Below, one piece after another: positions 30,100-45,793 of a DNA stretch of 64,000 nt. The position numbers and the translations under genes were made by a program. The stretch comes from an uncultured Bacteroidales bacterium (GTDB lineage: Bacteria > Bacteroidota > Bacteroidia > Bacteroidales > Muribaculaceae): the NCBI GenBank assembly GCA_902777835.1, contig CACYVC010000023.1:1-64000 (forward strand). Direction: 5' to 3'. Under the pieces are notes generated by a model. The model worked only from the letters and a program-made list of their open reading frames with translations, was not told where the DNA came from and did no database searches. Numbering within the stretch: the stretch's first letter is position 1; every line of letters starts with the position of its first letter.

Positions 30100-30466
30100 A
30101 TCAAGCAGTGGAGTGGCTTGTCGCTCGCGCCACTGGAGCGCGAGAGGAAAGTCCGGGCAACACAGAGCATCGCATTTCTTAACGGGAAGCTGGGGGCGAC
30201 CTCAGGGTTAAGGTGACAGAAAACAACCGCCGACACTTGTCGGTAAGGGTGAAAAGGCGGGGTAAGAGCCCACCGGGCGCCACGGCGACATGGCGCGCCG
30301 CACTACCTGCGAGTTGCAAGGTCAAGTACACCGTCAGGGCTGCTCGTCTATTGGCGGGGGGTAGACTGCTATACTGGCGTGGCAACACGTCCAGACAGAT
30401 AAATGACAAGCGGCGTCACCTACGGGTGACGGCCACATAACCCGGCTTACAGCTCCACTGCTTTTT
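30100..30466 (+). ncRNA. rnpB: RNase P RNA (type A)
   Basis: The catalytic RNA that trims tRNA 5' ends. Conserved regions are visible: GAGGAAAGTCCGGGC at about 30140-30154, ACAGAAAACAACCGCC at about 30217, GTAAGAGCCCACC at about 30262, AGATAAATGAC at about 30396, and ACATAACCCGGCTTA at about 30434. The P1 stem closes the molecule: AGCAGTGGAG (30104-30113) pairs with CTCCACTGCT (30453-30462), followed by a T run. Exact mature ends are approximate. Open frames across this region are spurious. Confidence 0.95.
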
Positions 30467-40820: not shown

Positions 40821-40838
40821 AAACAAGACAAAGAAACC

Positions 40839-40864
40839 GCCGAACCGCTTGAAAGGGTGTAGGC
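40839..40864 (+). promoter_or_regulatory. 26-nt conserved leader element, copy 1
   Basis: It begins GCCGAA, contains CGCT and GAAAGG, and ends GTAGGC. It lies 28 nt before the ATG of array lipoprotein 2. Outer GCC/GGC and a small inner hairpin with a four-base purine-rich loop are possible. Three further copies occur at 41323, 41905 and 44847. Confidence 0.7.
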
Positions 40865-40892
40865 AAAACAATTAAAACTCTAAGGCTTAATT

Positions 40893-41267
40893 ATGAAGAA
40901 ATACTTATTAATTGTAGCAGCGGCGCTGCTGGCATTACCAGCTCTCAACTCCTGCAACAAACCTAGCGGAGACCCTGAAAAAGACGCTGAGGCATTTCAG
41001 GGTTTAATTGAGGATCAACTTGAAATAGAGCTAGAAGCACAGCAAAAAATTGCTGACCTTGCCGAATACTATGCCGAGAATGAAGATTATGATGCTTACA
41101 AAGATCTTCAAGATGAGTTTTTTGAAATGAGCAAGGACTTGCAAGAGCAATATGAGGATCAAATTAAAGACCTCAATAAAGCAATCTCAAAAGTTGAAAA
41201 GAAAATCAACAAAAAGAAGAACAAAAACAATGACGAGGATGAAAGCACTAACGAGGATGAAGAGTAA
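40893..41267 (+). CDS. Array lipoprotein 2
   Basis: A 124-residue lipoprotein with lipobox ALNSC (Cys 21), the family motif NKPSGDPEKDAEAFQGL, a helical acidic middle (LAEYYAENEDYDAYKDL, which matches the equivalent part of lipoprotein 3) and a Lys/Asn then Asp/Glu-rich tail. It is preceded by leader element copy 1. Function unknown. Confidence 0.75.
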   Translation: MKKYLLIVAAALLALPALNSCNKPSGDPEKDAEAFQGLIEDQLEIELEAQQKIADLAEYYAENEDYDAYKDLQDEFFEMSKDLQEQYEDQIKDLNKAISKVEKKINKKKNKNNDEDESTNEDEE

Positions 41268-41322
41268 TTATCATTCACCTAACTCTTTATCATCCAAGTG
41301 ACACATCATCATCAAGAGAAAA

Positions 41323-41348
41323 GCCGAATCGCTCTGAAGGAAGTAGGA
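41323..41348 (+). promoter_or_regulatory. 26-nt conserved leader element, copy 2
   Basis: The most divergent copy: GCCGAA, CGCTCTGAAGG, then AGTAGGAA, losing the final C. It ends 31 nt before the ATG of array lipoprotein 3. Confidence 0.65.
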
Positions 41349-41379
41349 ACAATTAATAACTAATAGAGAAAAATATATT

Positions 41380-41742
41380 ATGAAAAAATACTTAATAATA
41401 GCAACGGTTGCAATCATCAGCTTACCATTGATCTCCTGTGACAAACCCACAGGAGACCCCAAAAAAGACATAGAGAATTTGAAAGGGTTGGCTGAAAAAG
41501 CTATGGATACCCAAATTAAACAGATGGAGCAACAACTGGAATTTGCCGAATTCTATGCCGAAGATGGCGATTATAAAGGATACGAAAAATTTGGGAAGAA
41601 ATTAGACAAACTTGAAAGCGCAATTCGTAAAGATTTCAAGAAAGAACATAAGGCAGAGTTTAAAGATGCTGAAAAACGCATAGAAAAGGCCGAAAAGAAA
41701 TTAAACAAAAGTAGAGACAAAGACGAAGAAAATGAAGAATAG
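41380..41742 (+). CDS. Array lipoprotein 3
   Basis: A 120-residue lipoprotein with lipobox PLISC (Cys 20), the motif DKPTGDPKKDIENLKGL, then FAEFYAEDGDYKGYEKF and a Lys-rich helical tail. It is closest in sequence to lipoprotein 2, and is preceded by leader element copy 2. Function unknown. Confidence 0.75.
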   Translation: MKKYLIIATVAIISLPLISCDKPTGDPKKDIENLKGLAEKAMDTQIKQMEQQLEFAEFYAEDGDYKGYEKFGKKLDKLESAIRKDFKKEHKAEFKDAEKRIEKAEKKLNKSRDKDEENEE

Positions 41743-41904
41743 CCGATAAACCGCCACCTGCTTTTTCTCAAGAAACATGACTTTTCATGAGCCCAGAGGA
41801 AAGAATATACAACCAACCTCTTAGCACTATTCAAGAAAACAGCAAGTCTGGCGATATCGACAAAACAAATCAATATTGTTTAACTAAAGAAACAACAAGA
41901 AAAA

Positions 41905-41930
41905 GCCGAAACGCTTTAAAGGGAGTAGGC
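41905..41930 (+). promoter_or_regulatory. 26-nt conserved leader element, copy 3
   Basis: GCCGAAACGCT, then TTAAAGGG, then AGTAGGC. It ends 29 nt before the ATG of array lipoprotein 4. Upstream lies a 160-nt stretch without a credible gene. Confidence 0.7.
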
Positions 41931-41959
41931 ACAAATTTTTAAAACCATATTTTTTTATT

Positions 41960-42277
41960 ATGAAGATTAAATTTTTATCAATCGCATTTGCACTTTTTAT
42001 TGCTGTATTGTTCACTGCCTGCAGTAAAGGCCCTAGCGGCGATCCCGCAGCTGACGCTAAACAATGCGCCACTGAGATGATTGACCTCATGAAGAATGTT
42101 GACGTAAGCAACCTCAAGACTGCTGAAGACGCCGAGAAGTGGGAGAAAGAGTTCTCAAAACAAGTAGAAGATCTCCAGAAGAAATATGAGGACTTCTACA
42201 AAGAGAAAGGCGAGGATAAACTGAAAGAGTTCCAAAAAGCTGTTGAGGATCTGGAGAATGACCCAGAGATCGGATAA
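41960..42277 (+). CDS. Array lipoprotein 4
   Basis: A 105-residue lipoprotein with lipobox LFTAC (Cys 21) and motif GPSGDPAADAKQCATEM. The rest is a charged helix (KKYEDFYKEKGEDKLKEF). Its last 80 residues are almost identical to lipoprotein 5, also at the DNA level and into the downstream terminator, indicating a recent tandem duplication. Function unknown. Confidence 0.78.
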   Translation: MKIKFLSIAFALFIAVLFTACSKGPSGDPAADAKQCATEMIDLMKNVDVSNLKTAEDAEKWEKEFSKQVEDLQKKYEDFYKEKGEDKLKEFQKAVEDLENDPEIG

Positions 42278-42328
42278 TTTTTTATCTAAACTTTTCTTTT
42301 TGACTATCTCTAGATAATCATTTCACAT

Positions 42329-42388
42329 AGAGTGTTGCATTAGTGTATACGTTAATTTTTTAAACAGTAAATGCAACACTCTTTCTTT
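42329..42388 (+). terminator. Terminator after array lipoprotein 4
   Basis: A 13-bp perfect stem (42329-42341 with 42370-42382), 28-nt loop and T-rich tail. The same hairpin recurs at 42905. Confidence 0.85.
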
Positions 42389-42441
42389 AAAAAATACAAT
42401 TAACCACAAAAATTTAACAAATAATTTTAGATCATCACATT

Positions 42442-42828
42442 ATGAAATTCAAATTTTTATCTATCATCATGGCCGTTGCAGTAGCATTGGCATTCACCTC
42501 ATGCGACACCAAGAAAGCTAGCGCAAGCGACAAGAGCGAGAGCGCAAGCACAAGCGAGCAAGTTGAAGAAGAAAAAGTTCTTGAGCCAACTGGCGATGCT
42601 TCTGCCGATGCAAAGCAATGCGCCACTGAGATGATTGACCTCATGAAGAATGTTGACGTAAGCAACCTCAAGACTGCAGAAGACGCCGATAAGTGGGAGA
42701 AGGAATTCTCAAATAAAGTAGATGAACTCCAGAAGAAATATGAGGACTTCTACAAAGAGAAAGGCGAGGATAAACTGAAAGAGTTCCAAAAAGCTGTTGA
42801 GGATCTGGAGAATGACCCAGAGATCTGA
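42442..42828 (+). CDS. Array lipoprotein 5
   Basis: A 128-residue lipoprotein with lipobox AFTSC. It has a Ser/Lys/Glu-rich linker (about 22-48) absent from lipoprotein 4, then PTGDASADAKQCATEM and a tail almost identical to lipoprotein 4. No copy of the 26-nt element precedes it. Function unknown. Confidence 0.78.
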   Translation: MKFKFLSIIMAVAVALAFTSCDTKKASASDKSESASTSEQVEEEKVLEPTGDASADAKQCATEMIDLMKNVDVSNLKTAEDADKWEKEFSNKVDELQKKYEDFYKEKGEDKLKEFQKAVEDLENDPEI

Positions 42829-42904
42829 AACTCATGGGTGAGACTAAGGAATAATTTATTATCTTACTTTTCTTTTTGACTATCATTAGATAATCATTTT
42901 ATAT

Positions 42905-42957
42905 AGAGTGTTGCATTAGTGTTTACTTTCTAAACAGTTAATGCAACACTCTTTTTT
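42905..42957 (+). terminator. Terminator after array lipoprotein 5
   Basis: A 13 to 14-bp stem (42905-42917 with 42940-42952) and a run of T; sequence nearly the same as the terminator at 42329. Confidence 0.88.
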
Positions 42958-43004
42958 AAAAAACTACGACAACCAATCAACAAACACCTAAGAATCATTA
43001 CATT

Positions 43005-43454
43005 ATGAAGATTAAATTATTATCAATCCTTATGGCAATCGCCCTGGCGTTGGCTTTCACTTCTTGCGATGAAAAGAAGAGTCGCTCACACGACGACAGC
43101 AGCAAAAGCGAGAAAGTAGATAAAGAAGATGTGGAAGATGAGGTGGAGTACGAAGTGAAAGAAATACACCCCACTGGCGACATCAACAAAGACGCAGAGG
43201 CGTTAACCCAAAACGTGATTGCTTTTTATAAAAAAATCAACACACAAGAAGATGCACTAAACATTCAAAAAGAATTTACCGAAATCCAAAAGGAATTTCA
43301 AGAGTTCTATAAGAAAAAAGGTCAAGATAAAGATTTCAACACGGCATACTTCAAGATGATGCAAGATCCCAAATATGCCAAAGACATAAAAGAGGGCCAA
43401 CAAAAAATAATGAAATTTGTCAGTGAGACCCTAAAGTCAGTTGATAACAAGTAA
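43005..43454 (+). CDS. Array lipoprotein 6
   Basis: A 149-residue lipoprotein with a lipobox (AFTSC) and signal peptide like lipoprotein 5, an acidic linker (about 22-55), the motif HPTGDINKDAEAL and a longer helical tail. It is the most divergent array member. Function unknown. It ends at a strong terminator and faces a minus-strand gene. Confidence 0.75.
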   Translation: MKIKLLSILMAIALALAFTSCDEKKSRSHDDSSKSEKVDKEDVEDEVEYEVKEIHPTGDINKDAEALTQNVIAFYKKINTQEDALNIQKEFTEIQKEFQEFYKKKGQDKDFNTAYFKMMQDPKYAKDIKEGQQKIMKFVSETLKSVDNK

Positions 43455-43481
43455 AAAAATCCCCTCGCGAAGGGGATTTTT
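43455..43481. terminator. Terminator between array lipoprotein 6 and PH-domain gene
   Basis: An 11-bp perfect stem (43455-43465 with 43471-43481) with A and T runs at both sides, so it can act in both directions. Confidence 0.9.
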
Positions 43482-43502
43482 ACTTTATGACGAGAGGACT
43501 TT

Positions 43503-43958
43503 TCACTCCTCTTTTAAATGCGAAATCTGCTCGTGGATGTTGGTAGAGAACCTAAGCGGATGACTGATGTACTTATAACTATTGGTAACCTCACCAGTGG
43601 TAACTGTCACTGTTCCATAGTCAAATATTCGTCCGGGAATAGACTGATCCACCTGCACACCCTCACACTTCTTAAGCAGCAGCTCGTGAGAGTTCCTATT
43701 TATGATGCCACGCTTGAAAATCAAGCGGTTGTTAGTCACAACATATTGTCTACCGCCATAGATTGATATGCCCCAAAAAAGAGCAATCAACAAAATCACA
43801 AGGCAGATGCAAGCATTTATCCACGCATCAGCGGGAATAAAAAACGCGCAAAACGACAAAAGTCCTAAAATAATAGGCCCTGTATAGATAATACCATGCT
43901 GCTTTGCCTCATAGGCGACAAACTCACCACTCATCAAGTTCTTTTGAATATAGCCCAT
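43503..43958 (-). CDS. Membrane protein with bacterial PH (YdbS-like) domain
   Basis: A 151-residue protein with two membrane helices (about 24-42 and 47-65) and a bacterial PH domain (YVVTNNRLIFKRGIINRNSHELLLKKCEGVQVDQSIPGRIFDYGTVTV segments match the bPH2 pattern). The role is unknown; such proteins sit in the inner membrane. It has its own promoter. Confidence 0.82.
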   Translation of the reverse strand: MGYIQKNLMSGEFVAYEAKQHGIIYTGPIILGLLSFCAFFIPADAWINACICLVILLIALFWGISIYGGRQYVVTNNRLIFKRGIINRNSHELLLKKCEGVQVDQSIPGRIFDYGTVTVTTGEVTNSYKYISHPLRFSTNIHEQISHLKEE

Positions 43959-43995
43959 AACTTTTATTTTTATTTATAATTATGATTTATCGTCG

Positions 43996-44003
43996 CAAAG
44001 TTA
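43996..44003 (-). promoter_or_regulatory. -7 box of PH-domain gene
   Basis: TAACTTTG on the minus strand, 37 nt before the ATG at 43958. Confidence 0.55.
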
Positions 44004-44068
44004 GATAAAAATCCCAATTATTATACAAATATTGAATGAAATAATGCATTATCGAGGGAATATTTGAA

Positions 44069-44650
44069 TTATGCGTCAATCTTGATGCCTCCTTGTTTAC
44101 CGCAGATATAGTTGATGGGGTGATCGATGCCCTTATGCATCAGGCCGTTGATAGTCAGTGGTTGACCAGGGATGAAACCCTGGCATTTGAAGGTGTCGCC
44201 CTCGGTGAGTTTGGCGTTCAGGGATTCTATCACTACATACACGTTGCAGCCACGGTACTCAATCGTCACCATGCGCTCTGGATGCCACCGCAGCGTGAGG
44301 CGTGTTCCAGGTTGTAGGGTGTCGCTGTCAATGTAGTGAGAGTCGAAGATTTGTGACGCAGCGGTGTTACTGAGGTTATGGCAGAAGTCATCCCAGTCGC
44401 GGCACCCAGCATAGCGTGCGAGCACATTAAGTGTGAAGCGGCGGCTAGTGCTATAGCTGTCTATATATCCCCACAGGCGCTTGAGAGTGTTGGTGGAGAT
44501 ATGTTCGCTGGTAGCGTCAGTGACGGCAATTGCAAGCATGTTGAAATCGCTGGGTAGCCGCATGGTGCGTCCTATCTTTTCTTCTACTTGCTTCTTCAGG
44601 GCATTAAGAGACTCCTGAACTTCGGCTATTATGATAGTTTCTTTTACCAT
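44069..44650 (-). CDS. Protein of unknown function with HTH-like region
   Basis: A soluble 193-residue protein. The N-terminal half includes HISTNTLKRLWGYIDSY followed by LNVLARYAGCRDWDDFC, which resembles a helix-turn-helix fold; the C-terminal half (from about 110) is beta-rich (RLTLRWHPERMVTIEYRG). It might be a regulator, but no domain was recognised with certainty. It is divergent from the LRR gene across a region with a 9-bp-period repeat. Confidence 0.6.
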   Translation of the reverse strand: MVKETIIIAEVQESLNALKKQVEEKIGRTMRLPSDFNMLAIAVTDATSEHISTNTLKRLWGYIDSYSTSRRFTLNVLARYAGCRDWDDFCHNLSNTAASQIFDSHYIDSDTLQPGTRLTLRWHPERMVTIEYRGCNVYVVIESLNAKLTEGDTFKCQGFIPGQPLTINGLMHKGIDHPINYICGKQGGIKIDA

Positions 44651-44688
44651 ATTAAGTTATTTGACAAGTTAACAACACAATCGATATC

Positions 44689-44715
44689 GTCAGACGAGTC
44701 CGACCAGGCTGACTT
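44689..44715 (-). repeat. 9-bp-period repeat, GTCCGAC type
   Basis: Three degenerate units, GTCAGAC, GTCCGAC and GGCTGAC, at 44689, 44698 and 44707, exactly 9 bp apart, upstream of the HTH-like gene. Confidence 0.65.
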
Positions 44716-44823
44716 AGTTTATCGCTTGCCATTCTCACCTGCAAATTTACAACTTTTTTCCCAATCCACGACCTATTCATAAATAAGGACTTGAAAGGAT
44801 AAGGTTTTCTCGTGCAGAACGAT

Positions 44824-44831
44824 TATATTTG
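44824..44831 (+). promoter_or_regulatory. -7 box of LRR gene
   Basis: TATATTTG, so transcription should start near 44836; the fourth copy of the 26-nt element then sits about 10 nt into the transcript. Confidence 0.55.
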
Positions 44832-44846
44832 CGAAACAAAGAGGCA

Positions 44847-44872
44847 ACCGAAACGCTCGAAAGGGAGTAGGC
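44847..44872 (+). promoter_or_regulatory. 26-nt conserved leader element, copy 4
   Basis: ACCGAAACGCTCGAAAGG followed by GAGTAGGC. It ends 24 nt before the ATG of the LRR gene. This copy has a promoter just upstream, so it is part of a short 5' leader rather than an intercistronic spacer. Confidence 0.75.
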
Positions 44873-44896: not shown

Positions 44897-45793
44897 ATGA
44901 CAATTGAAGATTATGACTTATTGTCAGGTGCAATCTCTTTTTTTGATATAGATGAGTTTCAGATGAAAAGAGAGGAAGAGATTCATGCTGGTATGGTGAG
45001 TATTGAGAAAGACAGCTTTAAGTTTGAACTTTTTGAAGATGAGGCTATTGTAAAAGAAGTCTCAGCTCGCATGGAGGATATCATTATCCCTGATTTTGTG
45101 GAACATAATGGAAAGAATTACAAAGTTACTTGTATTAATTGTGTCTTTAGTGGCGATGAATACAAGACTTTAGAGTTGGGGGCAAATGTCAAGTATATAA
45201 GACCCTACAGCTTTGCCGAATGCAAAAATCTTGAAAAAGTCAAACTAAATGATTGTCTTGAAGTTATTGGTGAAAATGCGTTCTATCGCACGCAAATCGA
45301 TGAAGTGATTATCCCTCAAAGTATAAAACGACTTGACGATAATGCGTTTTTCGATTGCAGATATTTGACTGTTTACTTGCCAAAAAGATTACAGGCAGGT
45401 GCAAACGTCTCAATTGATGGAACAGAACCGCTTGTTCAAAGAGTTTTTAAAAATGTAGATGTAGCGTTTATTCACTATTATGATGAATCTGATAACATGG
45501 AAATACTGCCTCTTAAGAGAATGCAGGATATATTTGATTCTTGTTCTTATTATGCTTTTGATACAATTCGTACTTATATGAATTTAAGTAACCAAAACTG
45601 GGACTCAAATCAATCTTATTATATGGGGCATCCTGACATGAGAGCTAAACGATATGTAATTAGGAAATCTACAAACGAAGAAATTATTGATGACGAAAAT
45701 GATCCTATAATTGCAACTTATAAATCCATGGAAGAAGTCTTGCGTGATGGTTGGAAATTAGATTCAGTTATAAAACACACAAACTATTACTAA
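44897..45793 (+). CDS. Leucine-rich repeat protein, intracellular
   Basis: A 298-residue protein without a signal peptide. Its middle (about 55-160) carries BspA/LRR_5-like leucine-rich repeats (YIRPYSFAECKNLEKVKL, VIGENAFYRTQIDEVIIP, RLDDNAFFDCRYLTVYLP). N- and C-terminal parts are acidic and unrecognised. Base composition is AT-richer than most neighbours, which could indicate transfer. It is first in a probable three-gene unit and carries leader element copy 4. Confidence 0.75.
   Translation: MTIEDYDLLSGAISFFDIDEFQMKREEEIHAGMVSIEKDSFKFELFEDEAIVKEVSARMEDIIIPDFVEHNGKNYKVTCINCVFSGDEYKTLELGANVKYIRPYSFAECKNLEKVKLNDCLEVIGENAFYRTQIDEVIIPQSIKRLDDNAFFDCRYLTVYLPKRLQAGANVSIDGTEPLVQRVFKNVDVAFIHYYDESDNMEILPLKRMQDIFDSCSYYAFDTIRTYMNLSNQNWDSNQSYYMGHPDMRAKRYVIRKSTNEEIIDDENDPIIATYKSMEEVLRDGWKLDSVIKHTNYY

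Follow-up and report, generated by a model that had tools for sequence, protein, structure and literature searches.

What is a 26-nucleotide (nt) sequence doing four times over in one stretch of bacterial DNA, each time a short and nearly fixed distance before a start codon? The question is raised by a 64,000-nt window (the whole stretch analysed, to which all coordinates refer) from an uncultured Bacteroidales bacterium of the Muribaculaceae, in which an earlier reading made from the letters only, here called the sequence-only reading, had noticed repeats at 40839-40864, 41323-41348, 41905-41930 and 44847-44872 on the forward strand. All four lie where that reading put them, in one orientation, and end 28, 31, 29 and 24 nt ahead of the ATG codons at 40893, 41380, 41960 and 44897, respectively. 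With up to three mismatches allowed, the pattern CCGAANCGCTNNNAAGGNNGTAGG matches the window at these four places and nowhere else (0.02 expected; 0/100 shuffles reach four), and the organism's own assembly (2.89 Mb, 90% complete) holds the same four copies at up to two mismatches, against none for a backwards-pattern control.

In our reading, the element is a hitherto undescribed sister form of the Rfam RNA family DUF805b (RF02914, clan CL00115, cis-regulatory), with helix P1 shortened to 2–3 base pairs (bp) and helix P2 carrying two extra pairs. Each copy would be a 5′-leader element of the next gene, acting locally on the following cistron: an RNA of ~34 nt folded as an H-type pseudoknot, in which pairs 6:18 and 7:17 lengthen P2 (GCC/GGC) beyond a GAA/NGUA internal loop, and the apical loop (G8 C9 U10 N11) forms P1 by pairing with (N)AG immediately upstream (position 0 is the first base of the 26-nt repeat; negative positions lie upstream). 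Such a knot would most likely influence how translation starts, and it might protect the mRNA as well; in this reading as a whole we place slightly more belief than doubt. Its conservation, the covariation of P2, P1 (strong in DUF805b, weak in the present form, hereafter the variant), its placement and the diversity of the genes behind it are computed results.

Conservation, pairing and kinship with DUF805b

With identical sequences merged before counting, the element occupies at least 154 distinct loci of gut Bacteroidales. Matches at up to two mismatches occur in 78/297 genomes sampled from the family, and in 34 of the 40 genomes of the organism's own genus, at one to four copies each (hand count). 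The backwards pattern also matched, 34 times over the 297 family genomes and three times in the genus (hand count), so some matches outside the genus are due to chance. The 72 family regions analysed apparently comprise all matches with zero or one mismatch and six with two; the remaining two-mismatch matches, nearly all outside the genus, were omitted as probably chance. A pattern scan of named genomes recovered at least 120 stretches. The 80 listed (L122-L201; L202-L241 were left out) gave 87 copies and belong to Muribaculaceae, Prevotella (including isolates P2-180 and P5-92), Paludibacteraceae, Candidatus Sodaliphilus and other Bacteroidales, many of these listed records coming from rumen and gut. 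A profile model run over 247 genomes of the order returned only the own genome and two weak matches, one a true DUF805b and the other in apparent coding sequence; this search sampled each family with few genomes and scored 27 candidates in every genome, which probably explains why it misses Prevotella, where the pattern scan finds the element. In viral contigs the strict variant pattern recovered no stretch and a relaxed pattern two, on which count a phage-specific origin of the variant was rejected.

Conservation extends beyond the repeat as first described. Among 91 copies (the 72 regions plus the window), AGA at −7 to −5 is conserved (A in 87, G in 88, A in 88), as are G0 (84/91) and C25 (81/91); these positions lie outside the search pattern, and their conservation is therefore independent of it. 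At ~34 nt, the element thus somewhat exceeds the 26-nt repeat. The GAR/GUA letters are nearly invariant in the same copies, though mostly fixed by the search pattern.

The stem P2 (0:25, 6:18, 2:23) is well supported by covariation. Pair 0:25 forms in 144 of 153 unique sequences (G-C, A-U, U-A) and 2:23 in 150 (C-G, U-A), both with changes on both sides, and 6:18 varies between A.G, U-A, G-C and C-G. A blind ranking of column pairs (50-nt window, 153 unique sequences, columns at least three apart) placed 6:18 first, 0:25 third, −8:11 eighth and 2:23 eleventh; the search pattern had left the letters at 0, 25, 6, 18, −8 and 11 open. None of 2000 shuffles reached the pairing count of 0:25, 6:18 or −8:11, and that of 2:23 was reached ten times. 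Over P2 and P1 together, 89.6% of cells are paired in the 85 aligned rows (one of 86 unique copies, L077:2049-2084, was omitted for a damaged 3′ arm), with a covariation of 0.104 vs 0.055 shuffled, reached by 0/500 shuffles. Pair 7:17 is C-G in 150/153 sequences and in all four window copies, its letters being set by the pattern.

Kinship with DUF805b is suggested by Rfam matches below threshold. In a comparison with the whole of Rfam, RF02914 matches copy 3 in register over model positions 1–35 of 35, at 15.2 bits vs a gathering cut-off of 35.6 (E 0.36 in 1,181 nt, and 0.018 in a 61-nt stretch picked with that match already known). Over 12 family genomes, the four RF02914 matches above the cut-off are true DUF805b copies, and variant copies in register take fifth to seventh place (E 3.4e-4, 6.5e-4 and 0.004); the best variant copy in relatives scores 23.3 bits, below 35.6. 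The own genome has a further weak RF02914 match, at G000:C16:86939-86972 (17.3 bits), which showed no convincing element by eye and was set aside. At the gathering score, Rfam reports only RNase P in the window (class A, 30105-30465, forward strand) and only a tRNA in 20 related loci. The sequence-only reading had not recognised the element, which holds as far as gathering-score matches go; wholly unknown it is not, being a sub-threshold relative of a described family.

That family is itself widespread. True DUF805b (E≤1e-6) was found in 129/247 genomes of the order (113 over the cut-off), 51/198 of the phylum (39 over), 23/149 of the family (21 over) and 0/14 controls. In 77 distinct copies a crossing helix of four pairs recurs (−8:11 in 59, −7:10 in 74, −6:9 in 76, −5:8 in 72), with a covariation of 0.553 vs 0.152 shuffled. 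An independent set comes from virus contigs, where copies were found by a sequence pattern that leaves −8, −7, −5, 0, 8, 10, 11 and 25 free. Among 102 distinct copies, −8:11 is paired in 67, −7:10 in 84, −5:8 in 90 and 0:25 in 87, against maxima over 2000 shuffles of 59, 66, 67 and 71; the outer P2 pair and P1 (at least three of four pairs) are jointly present in 80, jointly absent in 14 and mixed in eight. There is thus strong evidence that DUF805b is an H-type pseudoknot with a clear crossing helix P1.

The DUF805b core pattern recovered at least 120 stretches in viral contigs, with 129 matches within those 120 loci. The outer P2 pair and at least three of four P1 pairs are kept in 102 of these matches, 89 of which have an ATG and an open reading frame (ORF) of at least 25 amino acids (aa) at 15–35 nt; 27/129 lack the kept pairs, and by our estimate chance may give some tens of pattern matches. 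Of eight virus records compared with Rfam, the six chosen for the DUF805b pattern exceed the cut-off and the two carrying the variant do not. No DUF805b copy was found by pattern in 5.5–6.9-kb regions of three named Flavobacterium/Leeuwenhoekiella phages, and some virus-labelled contigs may be host DNA. Tandem copies were also seen, two lying 46 nt apart before one gene (L300:2934-3013) and three spaced 139 nt (L307:1143-1456). Three loci (L301, L302, L303) hold arrays of small GG-leader peptide genes, each gene with its own DUF805b leader, in a layout resembling the lipoprotein array of the window.

The two forms share a GCC-GAA...GUA-GGC stem, a crossing helix with upstream AG, a length of ~34–36 nt, a multi-copy habit, the phylum and an AUG ~20–25 nt downstream. 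They differ at three pairs: −5:8 is formed in 0/153 variant sequences vs 72/77 of DUF805b, so that the variant lacks the four-pair P1; 7:17 is C-G in the variant (150/153, pattern letters) and A.A in DUF805b (76/77); and 6:18 forms standard pairs in 69/153 variant copies vs A.G in 76/77 of DUF805b. The variant accordingly has the full-length in-register match (copy 3), the P2 covariation with GAA opposite GUA and the leader location of the family, and has neither a 35.6-bit score nor the four-pair P1 nor the unpaired A7/A17 beside A6.G18. Because it fails the cut-off and two structural features, it is classed as a sister form and not a member.

Several results weigh against this account. In the variant, pair −8:11 barely exceeds its best shuffle (97 vs 96 of 153), −5:8 is absent throughout, and −7:10 (146/153) and −6:9 (143/153) hardly vary. 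Pairs without structural meaning (−8:−2 and −19:−1, ranks 6 and 7) outrank −8:11, as do the neighbours of 6:18 (6:19, 5:19 and 5:18; ranks 2, 4 and 5); because structurally unexplained pairs rank so high, relatedness must add to the covariation signal, and the shuffles keep relatedness in. Pair 6:18 itself is A.G or A.A in 81/153. The search pattern fixed most letters from 1 to 24, including 7, 17, 9 and 10, so invariance there is partly imposed; in the 77 DUF805b rows, likewise, pairing is partly imposed, since P1 is built into the RF02914 model that located them and only rows forming three P2 pairs were retained. RF02914 does not list window copies 1, 2 and 4 (1/4 matched), and only 8/34 known variant copies of the 12 genomes are among the RF02914 matches listed. 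Folding energies are unexceptional (z −1.32 to +1.11), with the stem as predicted fold in 2/4 window copies, and are uninformative. The crossing helix in the variant is accordingly weakly supported, mainly by comparison with DUF805b. The same comparison bears on the small hairpin of the sequence-only reading, whose outer GCC/GGC pairs covary; its GAAA-like loop probably gives way to a loop pairing with upstream AG. A nested simple hairpin (C9-G16, U10-A15, NNRA loop) is possible on paper, with columns that hardly vary, and is disfavoured because the loop of DUF805b pairs upstream.

The name DUF805b presumably refers to DUF805-domain genes downstream. That domain is not among the 25 listed of 54 Pfam families for 97 variant proteins, nor among the 25 listed of 29 for 68 DUF805b proteins. 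Among the papers covered by the literature searches, none on the DUF805b RNA turned up; the RNA was reportedly described by Weinberg in 2017.

Copies in the window and their place before start codons

The window copies, with their putative pairs and the genes behind them, are as follows, all on the forward strand.

40831-40864, forward: copy 1; putative P1 40831-40833 (AAG) with 40848-40850 (CUU); P2 40839-40841 with 40862-40864; inner pairs 40845:40857 (C-G) and 40846:40856
40893-41267, forward: gene after copy 1; small lipoprotein-like protein, 124 aa; no Pfam match at E≤0.1
41315-41348, forward: copy 2; possible P1 41315-41318 (AGAG) with 41332-41335 (CUCU); P2 of the inner two pairs only (outer G/A unpaired); inner pairs U-A and C-G
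41380-41742, forward: gene after copy 2; small lipoprotein-like protein, 120 aa; no Pfam match over cut-off
41897-41930, forward: copy 3; putative P1 AAG/CUU, P2 GCC/GGC; the sole window copy matched by Rfam DUF805b (41896-41931)
41960-42277, forward: gene after copy 3; small lipoprotein-like protein, 105 aa; no Pfam match over cut-off
44824-44831, forward: putative Bacteroidota-type −7 box TATATTTG of the leucine-rich repeat (LRR) gene, called from its sequence, its place 16 nt before element position 1 and positional enrichment in related loci
44839-44872, forward: copy 4; putative P1 AG/CU, P2 CC/GG (outer A/C unpaired)
44897-45793, forward: gene after copy 4; BspA-type LRR protein, 298 aa (PF13306, E 1e-16)

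In copy 2 the AGA is shifted one base upstream. Copies 1–3 are intercistronic, lying ~10, 47 and 154 nt past the preceding stop codon in an array of small lipoprotein-like genes, and copy 4 stands directly behind the −7 box, as the sequence-only reading had described them: three spacers and one LRR leader. The box, called against what we take to be the Bacteroidota −7 consensus, would put the beginning of the LRR transcript close to copy 4; no box like TATATTTG is present in the sequence 11–30 nt before copies 1–3. Other genes of the lipoprotein array (ATG 40458, 42442 and 43005) have no copy of the element. Near-identical inverted repeats with T runs (GTGTTGCATT...AATGCAACAC) lie at 42320-42390 and 42900-42960, after genes 41960 and 42442, and are probably terminators duplicated along with duplicated genes.

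Across related loci the placement is narrow. An ATG lies 14–44 nt downstream of the variant in 147/155 loci (median 25, 5–95% range 21–33), compared with 251/890 random positions in the same loci; for DUF805b an ATG is found at 8–59 nt in 152/169 (median 22). Copies thus occur in relatives at near-fixed spacing, the opposite of the random positions and empty relatives that the sequence-only reading had named as telling against it, and together with the covariation this bears out its suggestion of a leader element working as RNA.

Promoters are placed less regularly. Putative −7 boxes cluster 10–29 nt before position 1, where two bins hold 48 and 26 of them (other bins 0–8 each). Even the nearest box has its end 12 nt short of position 1, which puts P1 within the transcript. 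A box stands directly upstream in 74/154 loci and is absent in 80/154; a stop codon is found within the upstream 120 nt in 40/80 box-less and 25/74 boxed loci. The median ATG spacing is equal in both settings (25 with a nearby promoter, 24.5 without), which indicates that the element tracks the start codon and not the promoter.

These distributions bear on two alternatives. A knot at the 5′ end of the mRNA, whether natural or made by processing between cistrons, could be a stability cap that blocks decay enzymes: 74/154 copies lie right behind a −7 box and so near a 5′ end, and cleavage could turn intercistronic copies into 5′ ends. A cap could work at any distance from the AUG, but the observed spacing is narrow and does not differ between the two contexts, and 80/154 copies have no nearby box, though non-consensus promoters are possible; we consider a cap as the element's main role quite unlikely. 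An element of transcription (a put-like antiterminator RNA, a pause site or a DNA operator) would suit the roughly half of copies found at transcript starts, but not the covariation of paired positions, the tie to the AUG instead of the promoter or the copies without a consensus promoter, and seems very improbable.

A third alternative concerns origin: the repeat might be a scar of mobile DNA, such as a cassette recombination site (attC), an insertion sequence (IS) end or a repeat element, that happens to precede genes. It occurs in several copies and in small-gene arrays, and several matches lie near contig ends. In 25 leaders of one gene family (grouped by protein start, MDEEMK type), on the other hand, positions −8 to 0, outside the pattern, are 89% identical and 1 to 25 (partly imposed) 94%, compared with 36–38% in the spacer, 77% in the first 45 coding nt and 27–49% in the flanks. 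Covariation, near-constant AUG spacing and this difference between element and flanks led us to reject the attC cassette, the IS end and the repeat scar, and we give a mobile origin almost no credence. Separately, six loci, each from a different genus (L039, L040, L044, L048, L052 and L102), carry a conserved, structured-looking stretch of up to ~300 nt, situated ~300 nt ahead of the element; this stretch terminates in a GC-rich hairpin, in most cases with a T run, and has no Rfam match at the gathering score.

Downstream genes and a possible role in translation

The genes behind the element are diverse. The 168 proteins downstream of the variant fall into 55 similarity clusters, including small lipoproteins, acidic coiled proteins, YtxH/DUF883/MT0933-antitoxin-like proteins, LRR_5 proteins, PDDEXK nucleases, Sel1 and DUF4332 proteins and possible peptide precursors; behind DUF805b are outer-membrane beta barrels, GG-leader peptides, and SprB and lectin-type secreted proteins. 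Pfam was run on 97/108 representative variant proteins and 68/73 DUF805b proteins (the top 25 families being listed where lists were longer), and no family matches more than seven of the 97 or seven of the 68. Homologous genes of four families carry either form: L072/L250 share 65% identity, L194/L250 57%, L041/L250 37%, L104/L292 42% and L182/L297 28% (E 9e-16), and a sixth pair, L103/L251, is weak (E 0.002). The specific link between lipoprotein array and LRR unit that the sequence-only reading had suggested is therefore not supported, the same element preceding many unrelated gene families in other species. A conserved ORF of ~20 aa (MSIRIVFKVWKIRIAFEIAV, MCFKITFRIWKVRFSFEIAI, MTAKFIFKIWKIRFTIEIAI), possibly a micropeptide of a mobile element, begins 25–26 nt past the variant in one genome locus (L055) and two virus-labelled contigs (L446, L447).

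This breadth argues against a pathway-specific riboswitch. A tiny riboswitch-like sensor of a broad signal, for example a second messenger, could still control translation of many unrelated genes, as cyclic di-guanosine monophosphate riboswitches do elsewhere. It would account for a compact pseudoknot with conserved unpaired letters (GAA...GUA), for several copies per genome before unrelated genes, some in tandem (L300, L307), and for the cis-regulatory class that Rfam gives DUF805b. Set against it, no expression platform is visible between knot and AUG, where the spacer is mostly unstructured, the downstream families listed (top 25 each where longer) have no common pathway, and wide use on virus contigs suits a general device better than a sensor of a host metabolite. 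We regard a sensor as unlikely.

For the favoured pseudoknot acting at translation initiation, the setting is a phylum that does not use Shine-Dalgarno (SD) pairing. Bacteroidetes have no detectable SD sequences, and Prevotella bryantii apparently does not use SD pairing (PMC3155529). In that species, reporter output fell to about one fifth when a −5.2 kcal/mol structure trapped the SD region, and a hairpin 14 bp upstream gave the least efficient construct, while a −9 kcal/mol hairpin at −21 was not inhibitory (NucB 1.34-fold; PMC3155529). The variant mostly sits just beyond that −21 limit. Its knot would end ~21–33 nt before the AUG, just beyond the footprint expected of a starting ribosome, and is followed by a spacer that is A-rich (79% A+T, 47% A) and mostly unstructured (78% with a minimum free energy above −1 kcal/mol). 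We infer an action on translation, and with it a binding partner and the sign of the effect: the knot would promote or gate initiation by docking the 30S subunit or a common RNA-binding factor, and may additionally protect the start region against decay, in a phylum without SD pairing.

A more ambitious proposal, which we hold to be rather unlikely as a whole, is that DUF805b and the variant together form a phylum-wide, SD-independent ribosome-recruiting element, a portable enhancer resembling an internal ribosome entry site that serves secreted proteins, peptide precursors, stress-type proteins and phages, and in which the Muribaculaceae/Prevotella form swapped P1 pairs for P2 pairs and kept the function. 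How Bacteroidota choose and rate start codons without SD pairing is a question that a portable 34-nt RNA near the AUG makes testable with one reporter; if the proposed action is true, work on engineered gut Bacteroidales would gain a useful part as well. Besides, as the variant shows, a whole branch of the class escapes the Rfam DUF805b model.

Comparison with known RNA systems

Two further likenesses can be drawn. On paper, the GAA opposite NGUA beside a helix would fit a sarcin-ricin/loop-E (bulged-G) motif, whereas position 19 of the variant is variable (A 63, G 11, C 10, U 7 of 91). PreQ1-I, SAM-II and similar H-type pseudoknot riboswitches offer the other comparison. The variant differs from them in that no gathering-score Rfam match, coherent metabolic gene set, or SD or terminator platform was seen; it resembles them in its size, its putative topology class and its location in the 5′ leader.

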